64,000 nt of DNA from Chloroflexota bacterium. Lineage in GTDB: Bacteria > Chloroflexota > UBA11872 > UBA12225. The stretch covers positions 186,001 through 250,000 of the forward strand of contig JAUJOR010000005.1 of assembly GCA_030447525.1 (NCBI GenBank), in the 5' to 3' direction. A program made the position numbers and the translations under genes. The number at the start of each line of letters is the position of its first letter. The stretch's first letter is position 1. Of the stretch, positions 1 through 9,320 are shown one piece after another. The notes under the pieces were generated by a model, which ran no database searches, was not told the DNA's origin, and worked only from the letters and a program-made list of their open reading frames with translations.

Positions 1-2
1 CG

Positions 3-392
3 CTGCACGACCCCGTGCGCGCGATCAGAAACTGGCGGCGTCTGGTGCGGCCGGGCGGCCGGATCATCGCGATCGACGGCCTGTGGCGGCTAAGGACGCA
101 CCAACCAACTGTGCCTGTTCCGCTACCCGGCGCAGAGGCAACGGCGGACACCGTCAAGGCGCCCGCACCGTGGCGTGCGGCTTGGAACGAGCACTACGGC
201 GCGGTAGGGTCCGAGCTGCCCCTGTTCGCTACCGAGGAGATCGAACCGTCGATGGCCGCGTTCAGGGATGCCGGCTTCCCGGACGCACAGCTCTCTCGGC
301 TGGCGGAGATCGAGCGCATCGAACAGGAGAGTACGCCGGACCGCGCGCCCGCGACGCCGCGCTTCGTGATCTCGGCGCAGGTCCACGCGTAA
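3..392 (+). CDS. SAM-dependent methyltransferase, C-terminal part (cut by window edge)
   Basis: This is the end of a class I methyltransferase; the reading frame is open to the window edge and no true start is visible. The first residues read LHDPVRAIRNWRRLVRPGG, the usual region before strand 5 of Methyltransf_11-type enzymes, followed by RIIAIDGLW. The SAM-binding glycine motif would lie upstream. It ends about 88 bp before a binding-protein gene on the same strand and probably belongs to that operon, which holds a second methyltransferase at 2084. The substrate cannot be read from the sequence. Identification as a methyltransferase is fairly sure; membership of the transport operon is inferred from spacing. 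Confidence 0.75.
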   Translation: MHDPVRAIRNWRRLVRPGGRIIAIDGLWRLRTHQPTVPVPLPGAEATADTVKAPAPWRAAWNEHYGAVGSELPLFATEEIEPSMAAFRDAGFPDAQLSRLAEIERIEQESTPDRAPATPRFVISAQVHA

Positions 393-479
393 ATCGGGCC
401 GGCCATCGCCGCCGCCCGCCAGGCGAACGCGCCGGTCTGAAGTTGCAAGCTCACAAACTAACAAGCCAAGGAGAAGGAT

Positions 480-2087
480 GTGGAGAGAACTACTATGCGA
501 CCAGGAGCGTCTTCGCGCGTCGATGCCGGAATCGGACGGCGCGCTTTGGGTCGAGCGGGCGTAGGGGCGTTCGGGCTGCTCGCCGGGCTGGGCCCGCGGC
601 TCACCGCGGCGCAGGCCGAGGTCGTCGAAGAAGAGCTGAGGATGGTCACCCCGCGGACGTTCGACGGTCTGGATCCCACGCACGGATTCTCGGCCTCACG
701 GCTGCGGCAGGTGGGAGCCGCCGAGGGGCTGCTCCGCATTACCCGACAGGGCGGTATCGAGCCGGAGCTGGCGAGCTCCTACGAGATGCTTGACCCGACG
801 ATGTGGAGGGTAGAGCTGCGCCCCGACGTCACCTTCTGGAGCGGCCGGCCCGTGGACGCGTTGGCCGTGGTCGAGTCGCTGGAGCGTGCCCGGGCGCTCG
901 TGCCGTTCGCCGCCACGCTGCTGGCGGGCGTGCAGATCGAGCGAATCGATGACCGTACGCTGCACTTTTGGTCAGAGCAGCCCATTCCCAGTCTGCCGAC
1001 GACGCTCGCTGGAGAGTGGCTCGTGATTCACAACGCCGAGTCGTACGGGCCGGAGGTCAACTCGTTCGACCTCGCGGCGGCCGACCTGACGGGACCCTTC
1101 CGCATCACCGCCTTCGAGCCTGCCGTTCGGGTCTTCCTTGAGCGCAACCCCACCTACTGGGGGGTGCGGCCGCGCACCGCGCGGATCCACCTTGACGTGA
1201 TCCCCGATCCCGACGCGCGGACGCTCGCCGCGCTGAGCGGCGAGGCGCACCTTGTCCAGCTCGTCAACCCGGCAAGCGCCCGCCAGATCGAGCGCAGCCG
1301 CACGACGCGCCTGGTGCCCATTCCGGCCGACAGCATCGTCAGCGCCTACGTCAACCCAGAGCGACCGCAGTTCAGCGACGTCCGCGTGCGCCAGGCGCTG
1401 GCGTGGGCGGTGGATCGCGAGGAGCTTGTGGCGCTCGCCCACGACGGGTGGAGCGCTCCCGTGCCGTCCTGGCTGGGCAATGACCCGAACTACCCCGAAG
1501 CCAGGCGGGTCGGCTACACCAGGCAGGATCTCGCCAGGGCCGCGCAGCTGCTCGACGAGGCCGGCTGGCGACTCACTGCGGGCAGCAGCGTACGCGCCAA
1601 AGACGGCGTGCCGCTGAAATTCCGCCTGCTGTGGATGCTGACCTACCGGCCGCTCGCGGAGGTGCTCCAGGAGCAGTGGCGGAGGATCGGCGCCGACGTC
1701 GAAGTCCAGGGATCACCGGACGTAGCCTTTCTGCGCGCGCGTCGGGCCGAGGGCAACTGGGATGCCTTCCTCGAGGGCTGGGGCACGTTTGGCGATCCCG
1801 CCGCCGTCCTCAGCCGACACGTTGGCGCGACCGGCGACATCAACTACGGCAAGCTGGTCGATCCCGTCACAGAGGAACTGCTCGCAGGCTTCGTCGATCT
1901 GACCGATCCCGAGGACCGCCGGCAGCAGGCGCTGCGGATCAACGAGCGCCACGCCGAGCTGGTGCCGTTCATTCCGCTGACCCAGTTCCTGCAGCTGAAC
2001 GCCGTCAGCCGCAGGCTGCGCAACTACGACCCGCACTTCCTGCCGTGGGTGTATGAGGTGCATCCCGACCTGTGGGTGTCCGCATGA
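480..2087 (+). CDS. ABC transporter substrate-binding protein, family 5 (peptide/nickel type)
   Basis: Secreted binding protein of the SBP_bac_5 family (DppA/OppA/NikA type), 535 residues. The N-terminus has a twin-arginine at residues 20-21 (GRRALGRAG), a hydrophobic stretch and an AQA site near residue 47, so Tat export is likely. Family features include an early LRPDVTFWSG segment and DVRVRQALAWAVDREELV near residue 300. The GTG at 480 is chosen because AAGGAGAAGG lies just upstream; an ATG at 495 is a weaker alternative. It overlaps the next methyltransferase by ATGA. A paralogue follows at 2938. The ligand is unknown; the family takes peptides, nickel, metal-chelator complexes and other small molecules. 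Confidence 0.9.
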   Translation: MERTTMRPGASSRVDAGIGRRALGRAGVGAFGLLAGLGPRLTAAQAEVVEEELRMVTPRTFDGLDPTHGFSASRLRQVGAAEGLLRITRQGGIEPELASSYEMLDPTMWRVELRPDVTFWSGRPVDALAVVESLERARALVPFAATLLAGVQIERIDDRTLHFWSEQPIPSLPTTLAGEWLVIHNAESYGPEVNSFDLAAADLTGPFRITAFEPAVRVFLERNPTYWGVRPRTARIHLDVIPDPDARTLAALSGEAHLVQLVNPASARQIERSRTTRLVPIPADSIVSAYVNPERPQFSDVRVRQALAWAVDREELVALAHDGWSAPVPSWLGNDPNYPEARRVGYTRQDLARAAQLLDEAGWRLTAGSSVRAKDGVPLKFRLLWMLTYRPLAEVLQEQWRRIGADVEVQGSPDVAFLRARRAEGNWDAFLEGWGTFGDPAAVLSRHVGATGDINYGKLVDPVTEELLAGFVDLTDPEDRRQQALRINERHAELVPFIPLTQFLQLNAVSRRLRNYDPHFLPWVYEVHPDLWVSA

Positions 2088-2899
2088 CGGCGGCAGAGGC
2101 ACCTGCGATGGTTGCACCGGCCTCGGGCGGCGCAGCCGGCATCGATTGGACGACATGGCTGCGGCGCTGGGACGAGCAGCAGACCGGCTACCTCCCTGAC
2201 CGAGAGGTTCGCTTCGCGGTCATGTTCGACGTGCTCGAGGTACTGCTCCCGGCGGAGTTCGTCGCCCTCGATCTGTGTGCCGGACCGGGGTCGCTGAGTC
2301 AGCGGCTGCTCGCCCGGTTGCCGAACGCACAGTGCATCGCGGCGGACAAGGACCCGGTTCTGCTGGCGATGGGTCAGGGAGCGATCGGCGACGTTGGCGC
2401 CCGGCTCCGGTGGGTCGATGCGGATCTCCTGGCGGAAGATTGGGTGGCGAACCTCGGACTCACGCACGTAGATGCCGTGCTCTCGACGACGGCGCTGCAC
2501 TGGCTGTCGCCGGATCAGCTGGTGCGGGTGTACTGCCAGCTCGGTCAGCTCGTCCGTCCCGGTGGGGTGCTCATGAACGGCGACCACATGAGGTTTGCGC
2601 CGCACCTGGGCCACTTCCGGAAGGTGGCCGACGAGGTGAAGGCGGCCCGGCGTGCTGACGCGTTCGAGCGGCGTGGCGTCGAGGACTGGGAGGGCTGGTG
2701 GGCGGCGCTCGCGAGGGAGCCGGCCGCTGCCGAGTTGCTCGCTGAGCGCGAGCGGCGCTTTAGCGGGCGGGCGCGAGACTGGATCAATCCTAGCTACGAC
2801 TTCCAGGTCGGTGCGCTCAGGGAAGCCGGGTTCGCCGAGGTCGACACCATTTGGCAGAACGTGGACAACCGCGTCCTGCTGGCCGTGCGCGCCGCATAA
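2084..2899 (+). CDS. class I SAM-dependent methyltransferase
   Basis: A 271-residue methyltransferase. Motif I is VALDLCAGPGSLSQRL; an acidic residue after strand 2 (CIAADKDP), a VDADL segment and VRPGGVLMNGDH follow in the right order for a Rossmann-fold SAM enzyme. The ATG at 2084 overlaps the stop of the preceding binding-protein gene (ATGA), which implies translational coupling; ATG/GTG codons further upstream in this frame would overlap that gene more. Sitting between two binding-protein genes, it may modify the transported ligand or a chelator made elsewhere. That role is inference; nothing in the sequence names the substrate. Confidence 0.85.
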   Translation: MTAAEAPAMVAPASGGAAGIDWTTWLRRWDEQQTGYLPDREVRFAVMFDVLEVLLPAEFVALDLCAGPGSLSQRLLARLPNAQCIAADKDPVLLAMGQGAIGDVGARLRWVDADLLAEDWVANLGLTHVDAVLSTTALHWLSPDQLVRVYCQLGQLVRPGGVLMNGDHMRFAPHLGHFRKVADEVKAARRADAFERRGVEDWEGWWAALAREPAAAELLAERERRFSGRARDWINPSYDFQVGALREAGFAEVDTIWQNVDNRVLLAVRAA

Positions 2900-2937
2900 C
2901 TCCGCGATTCCATCCCTCAGCGAGAAAGGACGAGTAC

Positions 2938-4538
2938 ATGACACAGCGGCAACGGCAAGCAGGGATTGCCTCACCCGGTCGCGTGCGCCGACGGGCCGTG
3001 TTTGGTCGCGCCGTAGCCGGTGCGGCGGGACTGGCCGGCGCCACGAGCTCGCGGGCCAGCGCGCAAGCGGTGGTCGAGGATGAGCTGCGGGTGATCACCA
3101 ACCGCATCGCTCTCGGTCTCGACCCGGTCCACGAGAACACCGATGCCATCGGGGGTGCCCTGCGCAGCGTCGGGGCCGCCGAGGGTCTCCTCCGCGTGAC
3201 GCCCTATGCCGACGTGGATCTGGACCTGGCGAGCGGGTACGAGATGCTCGATCCGTTCACCTGGCACGTGACGCTCCGGCCCGGGGTGCGCTTTTGGAGC
3301 GGCCGAGCGGTCGACGCCGGAGCCGTGCTCGAGTCGCTCGAGCGCTCGCGCGCGCTGGCGCCGGCGGCCGCCGCGCTGCTGCGGGGCGTGCGCATCGAGG
3401 TGGTCGACGACCTGACGGTGCGGTTCCAGTCCGACAACCCGCTGCCCGGTCTGCCGATGAACCTGGCCAACGAGTGGCTGGTCATCCACAACGCGCAGTC
3501 CTACGGACCATCGGTCAACTCGTTCGACATCGGGGCGGCGGACCTGACCGGCTTCTACGCGGTCACCGCGTTCGAACCGGGCAGCCGCCTGACGCTTGTC
3601 CGCAACAAGCAGTACTGGGGAGTCGTGGCGCGCATGCGCCGCGTGCTGTTCGACGAGATCGCGGCCAACGAGGCGCGCGGGCTCGCCGCGCTGAGCGGCG
3701 AGGCGCACACGGTGCGCTCGATCGGGTCAACGTTTGCCGGGGCGCTCGAGCGCAGCCGCACAATGCGCCTGGTCTCCGTGACCAACGCGAGCACGGGCAT
3801 GGTGTACCTCAACACGCACAAGGCGCCGTTCGACGACGTCCGGGTGCGGCAGGCGCTGGCGTGGGCGCTCGACCGGGAGGAGATGGTGGCGCTGGCGCAC
3901 GATGGCCGGGGGACTCCGTACCCGTCGTGGTTCGCGGCGCACCCCGCGTACCCCGAGGCAAAGAAGGTGGGGTACACGCGGCAGGACACCGTCAGGGCGG
4001 CGCAGCTCCTGGACGAGGCGGGCTGGCGGCCGGCGGCCGGGTACGGGCGAACGACGGGGTGCCGCTGCGTTTTCGGCTGTACTGGTTTGGCCTCAACAAG
4101 GGCCAGGCGGAGGTGATGCAGGCGCAGTGGGGCAAGCTCGGCGTCGAGGTAGACGTGCAGGGGACCGCGGACTCGAGCTTCACCGTGCAGCGCCGCGCGG
4201 CGAACGACTGGGAGGCGTTCATCGAGCAGTGGAACACGGTGGGCGATCCGGCGGCGGTGATGAATCGCCAGATAGGGCCGGACGGGATCCTGAACTACGC
4301 GAAGTTCCGCGACGCCGAGCTGGAGCGACTGCTGGCGGACTTTGACGGCATCTTCGATCCGGAGGAGCGGCGGCAGCACGCGCTGCGCGTCAACGAGCGC
4401 CACGCCGAGCTGGTGCCGTTCATCCCGCTGTCGAGCCAGGACCGGTTGGGTGCGGTGAGCCGCCGGGTGCGGAACTACGTCCCGCACTTCACGCAGTGGC
4501 TCTACGAGGTGCATCCTGACCTGTGGGTCGCGGCGTAG
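2938..4538 (+). CDS. second family-5 substrate-binding protein (one frameshift)
   Basis: Paralogue of the protein at 480, with the same architecture: a Tat-type leader (RVRRRAVFGRAVAGAAG, arginines 17-19, AQA site near residue 44) and the same family blocks. The ATG at 2938 has GAAAGGA upstream. The reading frame breaks between about 4036 and 4044: the protein runs in one frame to DEAGWRPAAG and resumes as VRANDGVPLRFRLYW in another. The span is 1,601 bp, one base short of a whole number of codons, so a single deleted G or C in the run GGCCGGCGGCCGGG explains it. Everything downstream to LYEVHPDLWVAA is well conserved with the paralogue, which favours a sequencing error or very recent mutation over old decay. 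Confidence 0.85.
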
Positions 4539-4550
4539 CGGCGGCCGGTC

Positions 4551-5510
4551 ATGCTCCAGTACACCGCCCGCCGGCTGCTCATCACGGTCCCCGTGCTGTG
4601 GGCGGCCTTTACACTGAGCTTCCTCCTCATCCGCGCGGCGCCGGGCGATCCAGTGGACATCATGTTCGGCCCGCAGGAGAGCGGCGGTGGCGTGGAGGCG
4701 GTGACCAAAGAGCAGAAGGACCAGCGCCGACGGGAGCTGGGGATCAACCAGCCGCTGCCGGTGCAGTACGTCGCCTGGTTCGGGCGGGTGCTGCACGGGG
4801 ACATCGGCACGTCGTTCAAGTCGCGGCGCTCGGTGTTCGTCGAGCTCCAGCAGCGGCTGCCGGCGACGCTGACGCTCGCGGCGGCGTCGTTCACGATCAA
4901 GGTCGTGGTCGTCGTCGGGTTGGGCATCCTGGCGGCCGCGAAGGTGGGTAGCATCTGGGACCACCTGGTGCGGCTCTTCGCGCTGGTGCTGATCGCGATG
5001 CCCAGCTTCTGGCTCGGGCTGCTCCTGCTGTGGCTCTTCGCGGTGCATTTCCAGTGGGTGACCGTAGCGGGGCCGGCGACGCCGCAGCGGGTGGTCTTGC
5101 CCGCCGTCACCCTCGGCTTGGTCACCGCGCCGACGGTGATGCGCGTGCTGCGGGCCAGCCTGCTGGCCGAGCTCGGCCGGGCGCACGTGGTGTTCAGCCG
5201 GGCGAAGGGGCTGCCGGAGCACCTCATCCTATGGCGGCACACGCTGCGCCTGGCGATGCTGCCGGCGGTGACGCTCCTTGGGATCAGCCTTACCTACCTC
5301 ATGACGGGCTCGGTGATCATCGAGTCGGTCTTCTCGTGGCCGGGCGTCGGGAAATACGTCATGGACTCGATCCAGGCGCGCGACTACCCGGTGATCCAGG
5401 GCTTCGTATTGCTGGCCACGGCGATCACCGTCTTCGGCAACCTGCTGGTCGATCTGGCGTACGGGTTGCTCGACCCGCGCATCCGGCTGGGCACGGCCGG
5501 CCAGACGTGA
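4551..5510 (+). CDS. ABC transporter permease, DppB type
   Basis: Inner-membrane permease of the BPD_transp_1 family, 319 residues, six predicted membrane segments. It starts with the typical first helix (QYTARRLLITVPVLW) followed by a RAAPGDPVD periplasmic segment and LGINQPLPVQYVAWF. The cytoplasmic EAA-type loop is RAKGLPEHLILWRHTLRLAM near residues 218-237. The ending LLDPRIRLG is characteristic of DppB proteins. It begins 12 bp after the second binding-protein gene. It pairs with the DppC-type permease at 5561 to form the channel; the ATPases at 6535 and 7611 would power it. Confidence 0.93.
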   Translation: MLQYTARRLLITVPVLWAAFTLSFLLIRAAPGDPVDIMFGPQESGGGVEAVTKEQKDQRRRELGINQPLPVQYVAWFGRVLHGDIGTSFKSRRSVFVELQQRLPATLTLAAASFTIKVVVVVGLGILAAAKVGSIWDHLVRLFALVLIAMPSFWLGLLLLWLFAVHFQWVTVAGPATPQRVVLPAVTLGLVTAPTVMRVLRASLLAELGRAHVVFSRAKGLPEHLILWRHTLRLAMLPAVTLLGISLTYLMTGSVIIESVFSWPGVGKYVMDSIQARDYPVIQGFVLLATAITVFGNLLVDLAYGLLDPRIRLGTAGQT

Positions 5511-5560
5511 AGCGAGCTATGAGTGACGAGTGATGGGTGCTGATCTAGGAGGAATGGTTC

Positions 5561-6535
5561 ATGGCCGACGCTGAGGTTGCGGAGCGGCTCGTCGCGCCAC
5601 CGGCGGCGCCGGTCGCGGCGGCCGGACGGGCGGGAACGCTGGCCGGGGAGCTCCAGGCCGAGGCGACCCACGCGCTGGCGCAGGCGGGCCTGCAGCCGGC
5701 GGTCACGCGGCCGCGCCGGAAGATCAACTGGCTGATCGTGACCGGCGGCGTGATCCTGGCGCTGGTGCTTGGCCTGACCCTGGCGGCGCCCATGCTGGCG
5801 CCGTACCACCCGGCCGAGCAGCGCGCGCGCGAGCGGCTTCAGGGGCCGAGCCGGGCGCACCCCATGGGCACCGACCGGCTGGGGCGCGACATCTACTCGC
5901 GGGTGCTGTACGGCGGCCAGACGTCGCTCTCCGCCAGCTCGATCGCGCTGGGCGTCACGCTCACAATCGGCGTCGCGCTCGGGTTGCTGGCGGGGTACGC
6001 CGGTGGGTGGGTCGACGGTGCGATCATGCGGCTGGTCGACGTGCTGCTGGCGTTTCCCTCGTTCATCCTGGCGCTGATCGTGGCCGGCCTCTACGGGCCC
6101 GGCCTGCTGAAGGTGGTGCTCGCCGCGACCGCCGTGTGGTGGGTCAGCTACGCGCGCGTGACGCGGAGCCTCGTGCTGCAGGCGAAGCAGGAGGGTTACG
6201 TCCAGGCCGCGCGCGCGGCGGGGGCACGGCCGCTGTCGATCGCCGTCCGGGAGGTGCTGCCCCAGATTCTGGGGCCGATCGTGGTGCTGGCTACGCTGAA
6301 CCTGGGCCGGCTGATCCTGACGCTCTCGGGGCTGTCGTTCCTGGGGATGGGCGCGCAGCCGCCGACGGCGGAGTGGGGGCTGATGCTGTCCGAAGGTAAG
6401 GCGTACTTCATGGAGTTCCAGCACATGATGGTCTTCCCGGGATTGATGATCTTCGTCACGGTGCTCGGGCTGACGCTGCTCGGCGAGGGGCTGCGCGACG
6501 TGCTCGACCCGAACGGCGCGGCGGGGCGCGCCTGA
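5561..6535 (+). CDS. ABC transporter permease, DppC type
   Basis: Second channel subunit, 324 residues. A cytoplasmic N-terminal extension of about 50 residues rich in Ala and Pro comes before the first helix. The DppC hallmark HPMGTDRLGRDIYSRVLYGG lies near residues 99-118. The EAA loop reads RAAGARPLSIAVREVLPQIL, and the C-terminus ends GLRDVLDPNG, both typical of the subfamily. A strong AGGAGG sits upstream of the ATG at 5561. The stop overlaps the ATG of the next ATPase gene by one base (TGATG), so the transporter genes are translationally coupled. Confidence 0.93.
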   Translation: MADAEVAERLVAPPAAPVAAAGRAGTLAGELQAEATHALAQAGLQPAVTRPRRKINWLIVTGGVILALVLGLTLAAPMLAPYHPAEQRARERLQGPSRAHPMGTDRLGRDIYSRVLYGGQTSLSASSIALGVTLTIGVALGLLAGYAGGWVDGAIMRLVDVLLAFPSFILALIVAGLYGPGLLKVVLAATAVWWVSYARVTRSLVLQAKQEGYVQAARAAGARPLSIAVREVLPQILGPIVVLATLNLGRLILTLSGLSFLGMGAQPPTAEWGLMLSEGKAYFMEFQHMMVFPGLMIFVTVLGLTLLGEGLRDVLDPNGAAGRA

Positions 6536-7614
6536 TGAGTGCGCTGGCGCCGCCGGCGCTCGCGTCCGCACCCGGCGAACCGGCGTCAGGTCGGGATCCG
6601 CGCACCGCGCTGGAGGTGCGCGACCTGACCGTGGCGTACCCGACGCCCGCGGGGACGGTGGTGGCGCTCCAGGGCGCGAGCTTCAGCCTACGCCGGGGCG
6701 AGACGCTCGCGCTGATGGGCGAGAGCGGCTGCGGCAAGAGCACGCTGGGGCGCGCGCTGCTGGGCCTGCTCGCGCCGCCGGGACGCATCGAGCGGGGGAC
6801 CATCACCCTCGCGGGCCGGCGGGTGGAGCGCCTCTCGCAGCGCGAGTGGCAGCCGCTGCGCGGGCGCGAGATCTCCATGCTGATGCAGGACCCCATGCTG
6901 GCGCTCAATCCGGTGCTGCCGATCGGGCTGCAGCTGAGCGAGACGGTGCGGGACGCGCGGGGGCGGGTGCCGCCCAAGCGCGAGGTGCGCGCGCGCGGCA
7001 TGGCGCTGCTGCGGAGCGTCGGCTTCGAGGATCCTGACCGGGTGTGGCGCTCGTACCCGTTCCAGCTGAGCGGCGGGATGCAGCAGCGCGCCGCGCTGGC
7101 GATCTCGCTGGTGAACCGGCCGCGCGTGCTGGTCGCCGACGAGCCGACCACCGCGCTGGACGTGCGCGTGCAGGCGCAGGTGCTGGACGTGATCCGGAAG
7201 CTGCAGGCGGAGCTGGATCTGGCCGTGGTGCTGATCACCCACGACGTCGGCGTCGCCGCGGCGCTGGCCACCGACGTGGCCGTGCTCTACGCGGGCCGAT
7301 TGGTCGAGCTAGGCCCGGCGCAGCAGGTACTGGCCACGCCGACGCACCCCTACACGGCCGGCCTGCTGGCGTGTCTGCCCTCGCCCAGCGGCGGCCTGCC
7401 GCGGCCGCTGGGCGGCCACCCACCCAGCCTGATCGAGCCGCCCGACCGGTGTCCCTTCATCCCGCGCTGCGCGCGTGCCGACGCGACCTGCCAGACGAAT
7501 CGCTTTCCGGCGCTGGCCAAGCAGCGCCCGGGCAGCTGGCGGCGTGCTATCACCCCATCTCTGACGCGGTCGCGCCGCACCCGCGCGCGCCGCCAGCGGC
7601 GACGAGATCCGTGA
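6535..7614 (+). CDS. ABC transporter ATP-binding protein, DppD/OppD type
   Basis: Cytoplasmic ATPase of the peptide/nickel importer, 359 residues. Walker A is GESGCGKST (about 62-70), the signature is LSGGMQQR (about 178-185) and Walker B is VLVADEPT (about 197-204). The C-terminal Opp-type cysteine cluster is present (RCPFIPRCARADATC). After RPGSW the family normally ends with an ACHHP-like motif; here it is present only in a neighbouring frame (ACYHPI, near 7540), so the last 28 residues may be misframed by another indel. In the annotated frame the stop overlaps the GTG of the next gene (GTGA), which argues the other way. The catalytic part is intact. Confidence 0.9.
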   Translation: MSALAPPALASAPGEPASGRDPRTALEVRDLTVAYPTPAGTVVALQGASFSLRRGETLALMGESGCGKSTLGRALLGLLAPPGRIERGTITLAGRRVERLSQREWQPLRGREISMLMQDPMLALNPVLPIGLQLSETVRDARGRVPPKREVRARGMALLRSVGFEDPDRVWRSYPFQLSGGMQQRAALAISLVNRPRVLVADEPTTALDVRVQAQVLDVIRKLQAELDLAVVLITHDVGVAAALATDVAVLYAGRLVELGPAQQVLATPTHPYTAGLLACLPSPSGGLPRPLGGHPPSLIEPPDRCPFIPRCARADATCQTNRFPALAKQRPGSWRRAITPSLTRSRRTRARRQRRRDP

Positions 7615-8486
7615 GCGGGCGGACGGGCGATGGTGCCGCCGCTGATGGCGGCGTGCTGCTCTCGGTGGGCGACATCCAGAAGCGGTACCGGGTGGGCGCA
7701 TGCTGGGCGCATCCCGGTCCACGCGGTGCGGGGCGCGAGCCTCGAGATTCGGCGGGGAGAGGTGCTGGGCCTGGTGGGCGCGAGCGCTGCGGCAAGAGCA
7801 CGCTGGCGCGGTGCATCCTGCGGCTGGAGCGGGCGGACGGGGGCTGGATCACGCTCGACGGGCGCCGGCTCGACCGGCTGCGCGGCGAGGCGCTGCGCCG
7901 CGAGCGCGCCACGTGCAGACCATCTTCCAGGATGCGCGGGGCTCGCTCAACCCGCGCGCGCAGCGCGCTGCGCATCGTGCGCGAGCCGCTCGACTACTTT
8001 GGGATCGGCAGGCCGGCGGAGCGGGAAGCGCGCGCGAGGTCGCTGCTCGAGCGCGTGGGGTTGACGCCGGACATGTTCGGGGCGGCGTCCGGGCAACCTG
8101 AGCAGTGGCCAGTGCCAGCGGGTGGCGATCGCCCGCGCGCTGGCGCGCAGCCGGACCTGCTGGTGTGCGACGAGCCGGTCTCGGCGCTCGACCTGTCGGT
8201 GCAGGCGCAGATCCTCCAGTTGCTGCACTCGCTGCAGCGCGAGCTCGGCTTCGGGATGCTGTTCATCTCGCACAACCTGGCAGTGGTGGAGGCGCTGAGC
8301 CAGCGCGTGGTGGTCATGGACGCCGGGCTGGTCGTGGAGGTGCTCGAGCCGGCTCCCGGCAGCCGCCTGGCGGATGAAGCGCGGCATCCCGTGACGCGGG
8401 ACCTGCTGGCGGCGATCCCGCGGCTGCCGGGGCAGCCAGACCGTCCGCACCAGGGTGCCGGGAACGCCGTCGCCGGCGCGGTCTAA
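7611..8486 (+). pseudogene. ABC transporter ATP-binding protein, DppF type, multiply frameshifted
   Basis: All parts of a DppF/OppF ATPase are present in the right order but scattered over three frames. LLSVGDIQKRY opens in the GTG 7611 frame; HAVRGASLEIRRGEVLGLVG is in another; CGKSTLARCILRLERADGG returns to the first; QTIFQDARGSLNPR is in a third; the signature region GNLSSGQCQRVAIARALA is in yet another, followed by DLLVCDEPVSALDLSVQAQ and the rest back in the first frame. At least six shifts occur in 0.9 kb, while the protein-level motifs remain near consensus. This is either a patch of poor base calling in GC runs or a recently broken gene. If truly broken, the importer would have only one ATPase. 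Confidence 0.8.
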
Positions 8487-8507
8487 GGCGAAAAAGGAAA
8501 GAGTGCT

Positions 8508-9320
8508 ATGGATGGTTCACCGACCCCAGACGCCGTCATTCTCCTGGCCAAGGGCGGGTATGGCGAGTGGCCGCAGTGCGAGCTGGACGGCATGCTGGCG
8601 GCGGTTCGCGCGACCCGCCGCTACCCGCACGTGGAGGGCGCGTTTCTCGACTCGGGCGCCCCGCCGTTTCCCAGCGTGCTCCGGGAGCTGGCGGAGCGCG
8701 GCGCCACGCGCATTCTCATCGCGCCGGTGTTCGTGCCGTTGGATCGCTCGCTGCGCGAGTGGCTCCCCAAGGTCGTGCGCCGGTCGCTCAAGAAGCACCA
8801 TCTGGAGAAGGTGGAGGTGGTGCTGGCCGGACCGCTGGGTGAGCGGCCGGAGCTGGGTGAGGCGGTCGTGCGCGCGCTGCCCGCGGCCGACAGCGGTCCT
8901 GACGTGCGCGAAGGTGCACCGCGAGACGTCGCCAACCAGTGGCTGAAGCCGCCGCCGCACCGGCACCACGTCTTCATGTGCGAGGGGCCGCGCTGCGCGA
9001 CGCTCGGCTCGCACGAGTTGTTCGTGCGCCTGCGCGAGCGGCTGGCCGAGCGCGGGCTGGCGGCGTCGGAGAATGAGGCGGGCGAGGGCGTCCTGGCGGT
9101 GCGTTCGAGCTGCCTCTACCCGTGCAACCTCGGGCCAATGATGGTGGTGTACCCGGAGGGTGCCTGGTATGGGGCGCTGAACGAGCGCGGGATCGACCGC
9201 ATCGTGGACGAGCATTTCGGGAACGGCCGGCCGGTGGAGGCCCACCTACGCTTCCAGCCGCTGCCGTCGCAAGACGGGATGCGGAGCCGCGATAGGGCGC
9301 CGGGAGCGGCCTCGCCCTAA
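8508..9320 (+). CDS. CbiX-like domain fused to a thioredoxin-fold [2Fe-2S] ferredoxin domain
   Basis: A 270-residue protein with two parts. Residues 1-125 resemble CbiX/sirohydrochlorin chelatases (VEGAFLDSGAPPFPSVLREL, then RGATRILIAPVFVPLDRSLREWLPK). Residues about 150-255 resemble a thioredoxin-like [2Fe-2S] protein: cysteines in CEGPRC and, later, in SSCLYPCNLGP, with MMVVYPEGAWYG. The GHGS motif that carries the metal-binding histidine in CbiX is replaced by AKGGYG, and the second histidine region (normally like AGRHVKED) is LDRSLREW, so a classical chelatase activity is doubtful. A ribosome site AAAGGAAAG precedes the ATG at 8508. It closes the transport operon, which hints at metal or tetrapyrrole handling (inference). 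Confidence 0.8.
   Translation: MDGSPTPDAVILLAKGGYGEWPQCELDGMLAAVRATRRYPHVEGAFLDSGAPPFPSVLRELAERGATRILIAPVFVPLDRSLREWLPKVVRRSLKKHHLEKVEVVLAGPLGERPELGEAVVRALPAADSGPDVREGAPRDVANQWLKPPPHRHHVFMCEGPRCATLGSHELFVRLRERLAERGLAASENEAGEGVLAVRSSCLYPCNLGPMMVVYPEGAWYGALNERGIDRIVDEHFGNGRPVEAHLRFQPLPSQDGMRSRDRAPGAASP

Follow-up and report, generated by a model that had tools for sequence, protein, structure and literature searches.

A candidate metal-scavenging operon of a Chloroflexota bacterium with a gene for a degenerate chelatase fused to a predicted [2Fe-2S] domain

The gene unit at the start of the analysed stretch of 64,000 nucleotides (the window) is very probably a metal-scavenging operon, and it encodes a candidate helper protein of an undescribed type, a degenerate chelatase domain joined to an iron-sulphur domain. 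Our overall reading, to which we assign a probability of roughly 0.55, is a transition-metal scavenging operon that would be repressed by a Fur-family protein and whose fusion protein would act on the imported metal complex. No account of a CbiX-ferredoxin fusion, or of a connection between it and the uptake of zinc or nickel, was recognised among the open-licence papers listed.

Organization of the operon

All operon genes are oriented on the + strand, as determined by ORF and profile analysis of the window and the upstream contig (Table 1). Two methyltransferase genes are interleaved with two paralogous family-5 binding-protein genes on this strand, an arrangement described in the initial annotation and confirmed by gene calls and Pfam matches. 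The genes listed there were recovered; the extent of the operon had to be corrected. It begins with MT1, 403 bases 5' of the window (L010:8598), a third paralogous binding protein (SBP0, C30:182481-184067, 59% identical to SBP1) is encoded further upstream, and two genes are frame-shifted. According to tblastn, the frame of SBP2 shifts near 4041, and several frame changes occur within the NikE-like gene from ~7690 to 8145, the signature motif of this gene, LSSGQCQRVAIARALA (8083-8145), lying in a different frame from the rest. These changes in the NikE-like gene represent either consensus errors or a recent pseudogene. Both genes read as broken, so either the assembly contains errors or this genome may lack a working importer.

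Table 1. Genes of the operon, with positions counted in the window.
Feature	Position	Strand	Evidence
MT1, class I SAM methyltransferase, 3' part	1..392	+	full gene L010:8598-9392; Pfam Methyltransf_11 92.8 bits
SBP1, family-5 solute-binding protein, twin-arginine-like N-terminus	480..2087	+	SBP_bac_5 211 bits
MT2, class I SAM methyltransferase, overlapping SBP1	2072..2899	+	Methyltransf_25 44 bits
SBP2, SBP1 paralogue (~60% identical)	2938..4538	+	tblastn pieces 3058-4041 and 4041-4535, different frames
NikB/Opp2B-like permease	4551..5510	+	NCBIfam Opp2B 342 bits (cut-off 350); NikB 299 bits
NikC/Opp2C-like permease	5561..6535	+	NCBIfam Opp2C 304 bits (cut-off 300)
NikD/OppD-like ATPase	6535..7614	+	Pfam ABC_tran and oligo_HPY above cut-offs
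NikE/OppF-like ATPase, several frame shifts	~7656..8486	+	tblastn with G024 homologue, 40% identity over 7656-8459
CbiX-like/[2Fe-2S] ferredoxin fusion	8508..9320	+	Pfam CbiX 44 bits; fold matches

Upstream of the window, a MATE gene is found in the opposite orientation and, still further upstream, a divergent COG0523/NicO-like gene pair. The COG0523 protein is closest to ZigA; the NicO-like identity of its partner is our own reading of the sequence. A recombinase-like ORF lies 3' of the operon and an IS-like remnant upstream of it.

The permeases and ATPases, initially assigned as DppBCDF-type, are present, but the permeases fit the nickel-type Opp2B/Opp2C models of NCBIfam best, rather than the Dpp models; the NikC-like protein exceeds its cut-off, whereas the NikB-like one falls slightly short. 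Among solved structures, the nearest to SBP1 are NikA-type nickel/metallophore binders (phmmer), and its best NCBIfam model, Opp5A_nikA, scores 163 bits, below the cut-off. In comparison with NikABCDE/CntABCDF-type importers, the window shares the family-5 binding protein, the Opp2B/Opp2C-like permeases and the two ATPases. It differs in its three paralogous binding proteins, the interposed methyltransferases and the fusion, and its binding proteins are far below the nickel equivalog cut-offs (for SBP1, 163 vs 600 for NF045468 and 149 vs 393 for TIGR02294). In a weak phmmer alignment, SBP1 has no histidine at the putative position of NikA His416, which we take to be a Ni-chelate-binding residue of E. 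coli NikA.

The SBP and NikBC(DE) genes are conserved as a group in relatives, where, on the available contigs, neither a methyltransferase nor the fusion directly adjoins the orthologous units. Joint conservation, whose absence had been named initially as grounds for refutation, thus fails for the gene set as a whole; it holds for two parts, the SBP genes together with NikBC(DE), and the fusion beside metal importers. The methyltransferases, which had been proposed as linked to the importer, are rejected as a conserved component of it. MT1 gives its best NCBIfam matches with CpaM-like/DVU_1556-like models, far under their cut-offs. An MT2-like gene (30% identical) adjoins the fusion in one relative only (L041), and this genome carries an additional N-terminal MT2 fragment (56% identical, C30:175619-175780). 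A methyltransferase-like fragment lies ~2.8 kb from the SBP gene of G037, and the weak MT2 relatives of G002, G003, G006 and G042 are surrounded by unrelated genes. The probable substrate of both enzymes, we would guess, is the chelator or some small molecule related to it.

The CbiX-like/[2Fe-2S] fusion

The fusion gene noted initially is a true fusion, as indicated by the Pfam CbiX match, the fold and a PDB profile match. Residues ~9-127 have the class II chelatase fold in degenerate form and are followed by a thioredoxin-like [2Fe-2S] ferredoxin domain (~150-245). In the AF2 model, the first domain matches CfbA (Foldseek, 1.7e-5) and SirB (2.8e-5), and the second Aquifex Fd4 (1m2a, E 3.5e-7). 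The Pfam [2Fe-2S] match, 24.6 bits, is just below the cut-off of 24.8, and the domain is backed by the fold and the PDB profile match. The predicted cluster cysteines (C158, C163, C202 and C206) are kept in all 22 family members. Fold and cysteines are those of Aquifex Fd4 and Azotobacter FeSI, which supports a thioredoxin-like ferredoxin with a predicted [2Fe-2S] cluster. Unlike these proteins, the domain is joined to a degenerate chelatase, and its gene lies beside metal importers.

In A. fulgidus CbiX-S, the catalytic histidines are His10 and His74 (PMC7689651). Both are missing in the 22 members of the fusion family, and neither position keeps a histidine in any of them; the residues found there are K/R (or other) and S/T/N/A (or other). 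The family thus shares the fold of the class II chelatases CbiX-S, CfbA, SirB and CbiX-L but not their histidines. B. megaterium CbiX-L likewise has an Fe-S centre, whose role is not known (PMC7689651); the cluster domain of the fusion, however, is a thioredoxin-like [2Fe-2S] ferredoxin and not a 4Fe-4S/His-rich tail. The fusion genes further differ from those of chelatases in adjoining importers, mostly without corrin genes. Judged from these residues, the fusion is not a tetrapyrrole chelatase.

Fusion genes recur beside metal importers in unrelated lineages. At 17 of 22 loci (in Chloroflexota, Thauera, Enterovirga and Aeromicrobium; about eight lineages), a FecBCD-type importer adjoins the fusion; it is absent from the window's own operon, and few genomes place the fusion next to a Nik-type importer. 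Several loci also carry AztC/AztD-like, COG0523, WD40 or Fur genes: a ZnuA/AztC-like neighbour in L042, AztC/AztD-like neighbours in L060, and COG0523 with WD40 and Fur in L054, L061 and L063. The loci of Thauera and Enterovirga include TonB receptors. In Aeromicrobium and Micromonospora, the fusion lies directly 5' of CobN and CobF. The FecBCD-type family at the 17 loci is annotated as "putative F420-0 transporter" (TIGR03868/69/73), with scores below the cut-offs where scored. The metal genes around it (Fur, COG0523, AztC/AztD-like, TonB, CobN) cast doubt on this label at the fusion loci. A parallel for these loci is the Zur-regulated PA2911-PA2914 of P. aeruginosa, a TonB receptor and a siderophore/B12-type ABC importer induced by zinc limitation and proposed to take up Co-pyochelin (PMC11481552). 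That report mentions no CbiX or ferredoxin, and the importer in the window is of the Nik type.

Candidate operators and the nature of the metal

Palindromes of the Fur-family type are found at two promoters of the region: ACTGCAAATAAGTTGCAGT precedes SBP0, and the candidate operator ACTGCGAATTGTAGGCAGT lies upstream of MT1 (L010:8488-8506). The form ACTGC-N9-GCAGT, present before MT1, occurs twice in L010 vs 0.04 expected. The form TGCRA-N5-TYGCA precedes the SBP gene of the orthologous importer at all four family promoters tested (this genome and three relatives), whereas shuffling gave it in 4-13 of 5000 shuffles for each of the four genomes; it was not seen in G024. Further copies of this form overlap the start of the ZigA-like COG0523 gene nearby and lie 5' of an exporter-fold ABC gene in G000 and of the homologous gene in G004. 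In G000, which has five Fur-family matches, one of these adjoins the ABC gene with the palindrome. Across the whole genome, the palindrome count does not exceed that of a control (8 vs 9), so support is drawn from position and conservation and the count itself is not used. We infer that a Fur-family protein binds these predicted operators. Of the upstream controls suggested initially, a B12 riboswitch was not found: near the operon, neither it nor another Rfam element was detected at gathering thresholds, and a hand-made DNA pattern for a B12 riboswitch/RNA element gave no match.

The initial proposal of an imported metal complex or tetrapyrrole-like ligand holds for the metal, given the NikA-type relatives, the palindromes, the ZigA-like COG0523 neighbour and the metal importers beside the fusion. 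Sirohydrochlorin/tetrapyrrole or corrin metallation by the fusion is rejected, as no member keeps the catalytic histidines and CbiC is absent from the 11 fusion-bearing Chloroflexota genomes (control genomes were positive). [NiFe]-hydrogenase was found in none of 14 genomes tested. Corrin synthesis and nickel are thus poor general explanations. We regard zinc, or cobalt standing in for it, as a likelier metal than nickel.

Nickel is weakened as a general metal by the enzymes missing in relatives and is kept as the first alternative, an unlikely one: an ordinary importer of a Ni-chelate for urease, with a Nur-like nickel sensor and the fusion as a nickel chaperone. The binding-protein and permease models are of the nickel type, and the operator is similar in form to tTGCaa-N5-ttGCAA, the box (PMC3919588) of Nur, the repressor of nikABCDE (PMC7055735), a likeness that points to nickel. 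The NicO-like gene, as we read it, and the urease of this genome agree with this. However, full urease matches are limited to two genomes, most relatives carrying the importer or the fusion lack the enzyme, the COG0523 neighbour is closest to ZigA and not to a nickel chaperone, and zinc-type AztC/AztD-like genes adjoin the fusion elsewhere.

Somewhat less probable is a cobalt/corrinoid system, in which the fusion would handle the cobalt needed to metallate or salvage corrinoids, and cobalt or a corrinoid would enter through the importer. The cobalamin-gene neighbours in Actinobacteria point to cobalt, and this genome encodes CobN as well as a cobinamide-salvage-like locus on a different contig. 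Against it stand the lost histidines, the lack of CbiC and of a riboswitch, and the occurrence of CobN in only two of the fusion-bearing genomes; proteins of the family-5 binding type are not known to bind corrinoids. Least probable is an ordinary peptide/opine importer with the methyltransferases and the fusion as chance neighbours: peptides are the usual cargo of family-5 importers, the full gene set is not conserved, and the recombinase-like ORF and IS-like remnant flank the operon, but the closest solved binders are nickel/metallophore types, the palindromes recur at orthologous promoters, and the fusion recurs next to metal importers.

A possible role in metal removal

In the metal-scavenging reading, a Fur-family regulator probably represses the operon when metal is sufficient. 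Outside the membrane, the family-5 binding proteins would bind a metal-chelate complex, which the NikBCDE/Opp2-type ABC importer would carry inward. The CbiX-like/[2Fe-2S] protein would then work on this complex in the cytosol, its chelatase-fold domain docking or holding it, while the [2Fe-2S] domain may supply an electron or hold the metal. Docking or holding is the more likely role as the catalytic histidines are gone.

More tentatively, the fusion could be a new cytosolic partner of metal importers, one that serves both the FecBCD type and the Nik type and occurs in three or more phyla. It would use a chelatase fold without metal insertion for cluster-assisted metal removal from the imported complex, for instance through reduction of Co(III) or of some other firmly bound ion. 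How bacteria strip the metal from complexes that they have taken up is understood for a few ferric siderophores, and to our knowledge hardly anything is known for zinc or cobalt complexes. As a small conserved protein that accompanies metal importers of various types and has plainly lost the chelatase chemistry, the fusion is a concrete candidate for this step, and through its family the name "F420-0 transporter" given to the accompanying FecBCD family can be put to the test.

Operon extent and importer type

The best-supported reading of the window's operon is that it serves metal scavenging. All genes listed in the initial annotation were found on one strand with short gaps or overlaps: a class I SAM methyltransferase (MT1), a family-5 binding protein (SBP1), a second pair of the same kinds (MT2, SBP2), NikB-, NikC-, NikD- and NikE-like genes and a CbiX/[2Fe-2S] fusion. 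The window spans C30:186001-250000 of its genome, G000. The block begins outside it, however, with MT1 starting at L010:8598 on the same contig, 403 bases upstream of window base 1 and divergent from a MATE gene, and a third paralogous binding protein (SBP0) lies upstream. One frame shift interrupts SBP2 near 4041, and several lie between about 7690 and 8145 in the NikE-like gene, whose motifs can still be made out in differing frames. These breaks are either indel errors in the assembly (5.1 Mb, 36 contigs) or the mark of recently broken genes.

The top models of the binding proteins are nickel-type, with scores far under cut-off, and their nearest solved relatives are the NikA nickel/metallophore binders. 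The permeases are nickel-type (Opp2B/Opp2C). Six relatives have an SBP1 orthologue (46-59% identity); NikB and NikC come next to it in four genomes of the same family (G002, G005, G006, G007), and NikB, C, D and E in G024. Neither a methyltransferase nor the fusion directly adjoins any of these SBP1 orthologues on the contigs examined.

Upstream of SBP0, beyond an IS-like remnant, lie a ZigA-like COG0523 gene (minus strand) and a divergent gene, which we take from its sequence to be NicO-like (no library match). Downstream of the COG0523 gene, a 444-aa protein carries a further thioredoxin-like [2Fe-2S] domain at its C-terminus. Its N-terminal half looks, from the sequence, like a metallo-beta-lactamase-type fold, with no support from any library. 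It is directly followed by an MT2-paralogue fragment.

Coordinates of features in and around the compared loci
Feature	Position	Remarks
SBP0	C30:182481-184067	upstream of MATE gene/MT1; 59% identity to SBP1
Degenerate transposase-like stretch	L009:14640-16250 (C30:180640-182250)	frame breaks; between NicO-like gene and SBP0
444-aa protein gene	L009:9836-11167 (C30:175836-177167)	minus strand
N-terminal MT2-paralogue fragment	L009:9619-9780 (C30:175619-175780)	minus strand; 56% identity over 54 residues, remainder unreadable
Fused exporter-fold ABC protein	G000:C27:243239-247201	window's genome; ~1300 aa, CydDC/MsbA-like halves; candidate operator upstream
Fur-family gene	G000:C27:247341-247901	adjoins fused ABC gene
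Fused ABC counterpart in G004	L041:4833-8912	adjoins MT2-like gene and fusion
Conserved ~395-aa protein	L054:5266-6441, L055:56-1231, L061:5234-6418, L063:6561-7727	adjoins Fur-family gene
Palindrome TATTGATACnnnGTATCAATA (approximate)	L054:7045-7070, L055:1727-1748, L061:6924-6953	between Fur-family gene and FecB
CobN, ChlI/D-like, CobO/BtuR, CobS, CbiB, FecCD-type genes	G000:C2:165000-184900 (L151)	named by sequence reading; CobN by Pfam

The chelatase-like/[2Fe-2S] protein and its neighbours

What is new here is the chelatase-like/[2Fe-2S] protein. Its AlphaFold model (mean pLDDT 76) has two domains: one resembles CfbA and SirB and shows their class II chelatase fold, the other is a thioredoxin-like [2Fe-2S] ferredoxin resembling Aquifex Fd4. 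Aligned to solved chelatases, it carries K or R at the first catalytic histidine and S or T at the second. None of the 22 fusion proteins (Chloroflexota, Pseudomonadota, Actinomycetota; L064 is truncated N-terminally) has either histidine, while four cysteines, W85 and H236 are kept throughout. On this evidence the name chelatase does not fit the protein.

The closest fusion-bearing relatives of the window's genome are Chloroflexota metagenome genomes. In tblastn searches, FecC and/or FecD adjoined the fusion in 17 of 22 loci (seven of families f4 and f5, G009, the L054/L055/L061/L063 group, L059/L060, Thauera, Enterovirga and Aeromicrobium), many closely related and representing about eight independent lineages. 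Neither was found beside the fusion in the window, G004 or Micromonospora (L066), nor in L050 and L064, which are cut by contig ends. This FecBCD family matches the NCBIfam 'putative F420-0 transporter' with scores below cut-offs. Further neighbours include TonB receptors in both Pseudomonadota (Thauera, Enterovirga); a Fur-family gene, COG0523 genes and WD40 in L054, L061 and L063; AztC/AztD-like and COG0523/WD40 genes in L060; a ZnuA/AztC-like gene and a Nik-type importer in G009; and CobN and CobF in Aeromicrobium. The conserved ~395-aa protein at the FecBCD-fusion loci has no NCBIfam match.

Candidate operators

Upstream of SBP0, 50 bases from the start codon, begins a perfect 7-5-7 palindrome, ACTGCAAATAAGTTGCAGT; because it was first spotted by eye, its significance should be discounted somewhat for the look-elsewhere effect. 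Its relaxed form, TGCRA-N5-TYGCA, resembles the Nur box (PMC3919588) and occurs within 300 bases upstream of the orthologous SBP gene in G000 (the window's genome), G002, G005 and G006, each occurrence being matched by 4-13 of 5000 shuffles; G002 and G006 share a genus and are not independent. It was not found upstream of the more distant G024 SBP gene. The relaxed form also overlaps the COG0523 gene start and precedes the fused exporter-fold ABC gene, possibly a member of the same regulon. In G004 it lies upstream of the homologous ABC gene and just 3' of the fusion gene. A looser site, ACTGC-N9-GCAGT, lies upstream of MT1 (2 in L010 versus 0.04 expected). Genome-wide, the palindrome is not enriched in G000 (8 sites versus 9 in the control), so what supports an operator is its position and conservation. 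The distinct palindrome TATTGATACnnnGTATCAATA is probably the operator of its adjoining Fur-family protein.

The metal involved

CbiC is missing in all 11 fusion-bearing Chloroflexota genomes tested, which makes corrin synthesis unlikely there. The locus L151, in the window's genome, which lacks CbiC, reads as one for corrinoid salvage that keeps a cobaltochelatase. No [NiFe]-hydrogenase was found in 14 genomes; a full urease match occurred in two. Neighbours of the fusion are predominantly zinc-type in Chloroflexota and cobalamin-type in Actinobacteria. COG0523 genes that neighbour WD40 and znuABC have been tied to zinc (PMC2770081). P. aeruginosa offers a precedent for joining the zinc and cobalt neighbourhoods: when zinc is limiting, one of its siderophore-type importers, controlled by Zur, is proposed to import cobalt-pyochelin (PMC11481552). 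Zinc or cobalt is tentatively favoured over nickel. The fusion recurs in the company of metal importers, and its product may handle the imported complex.
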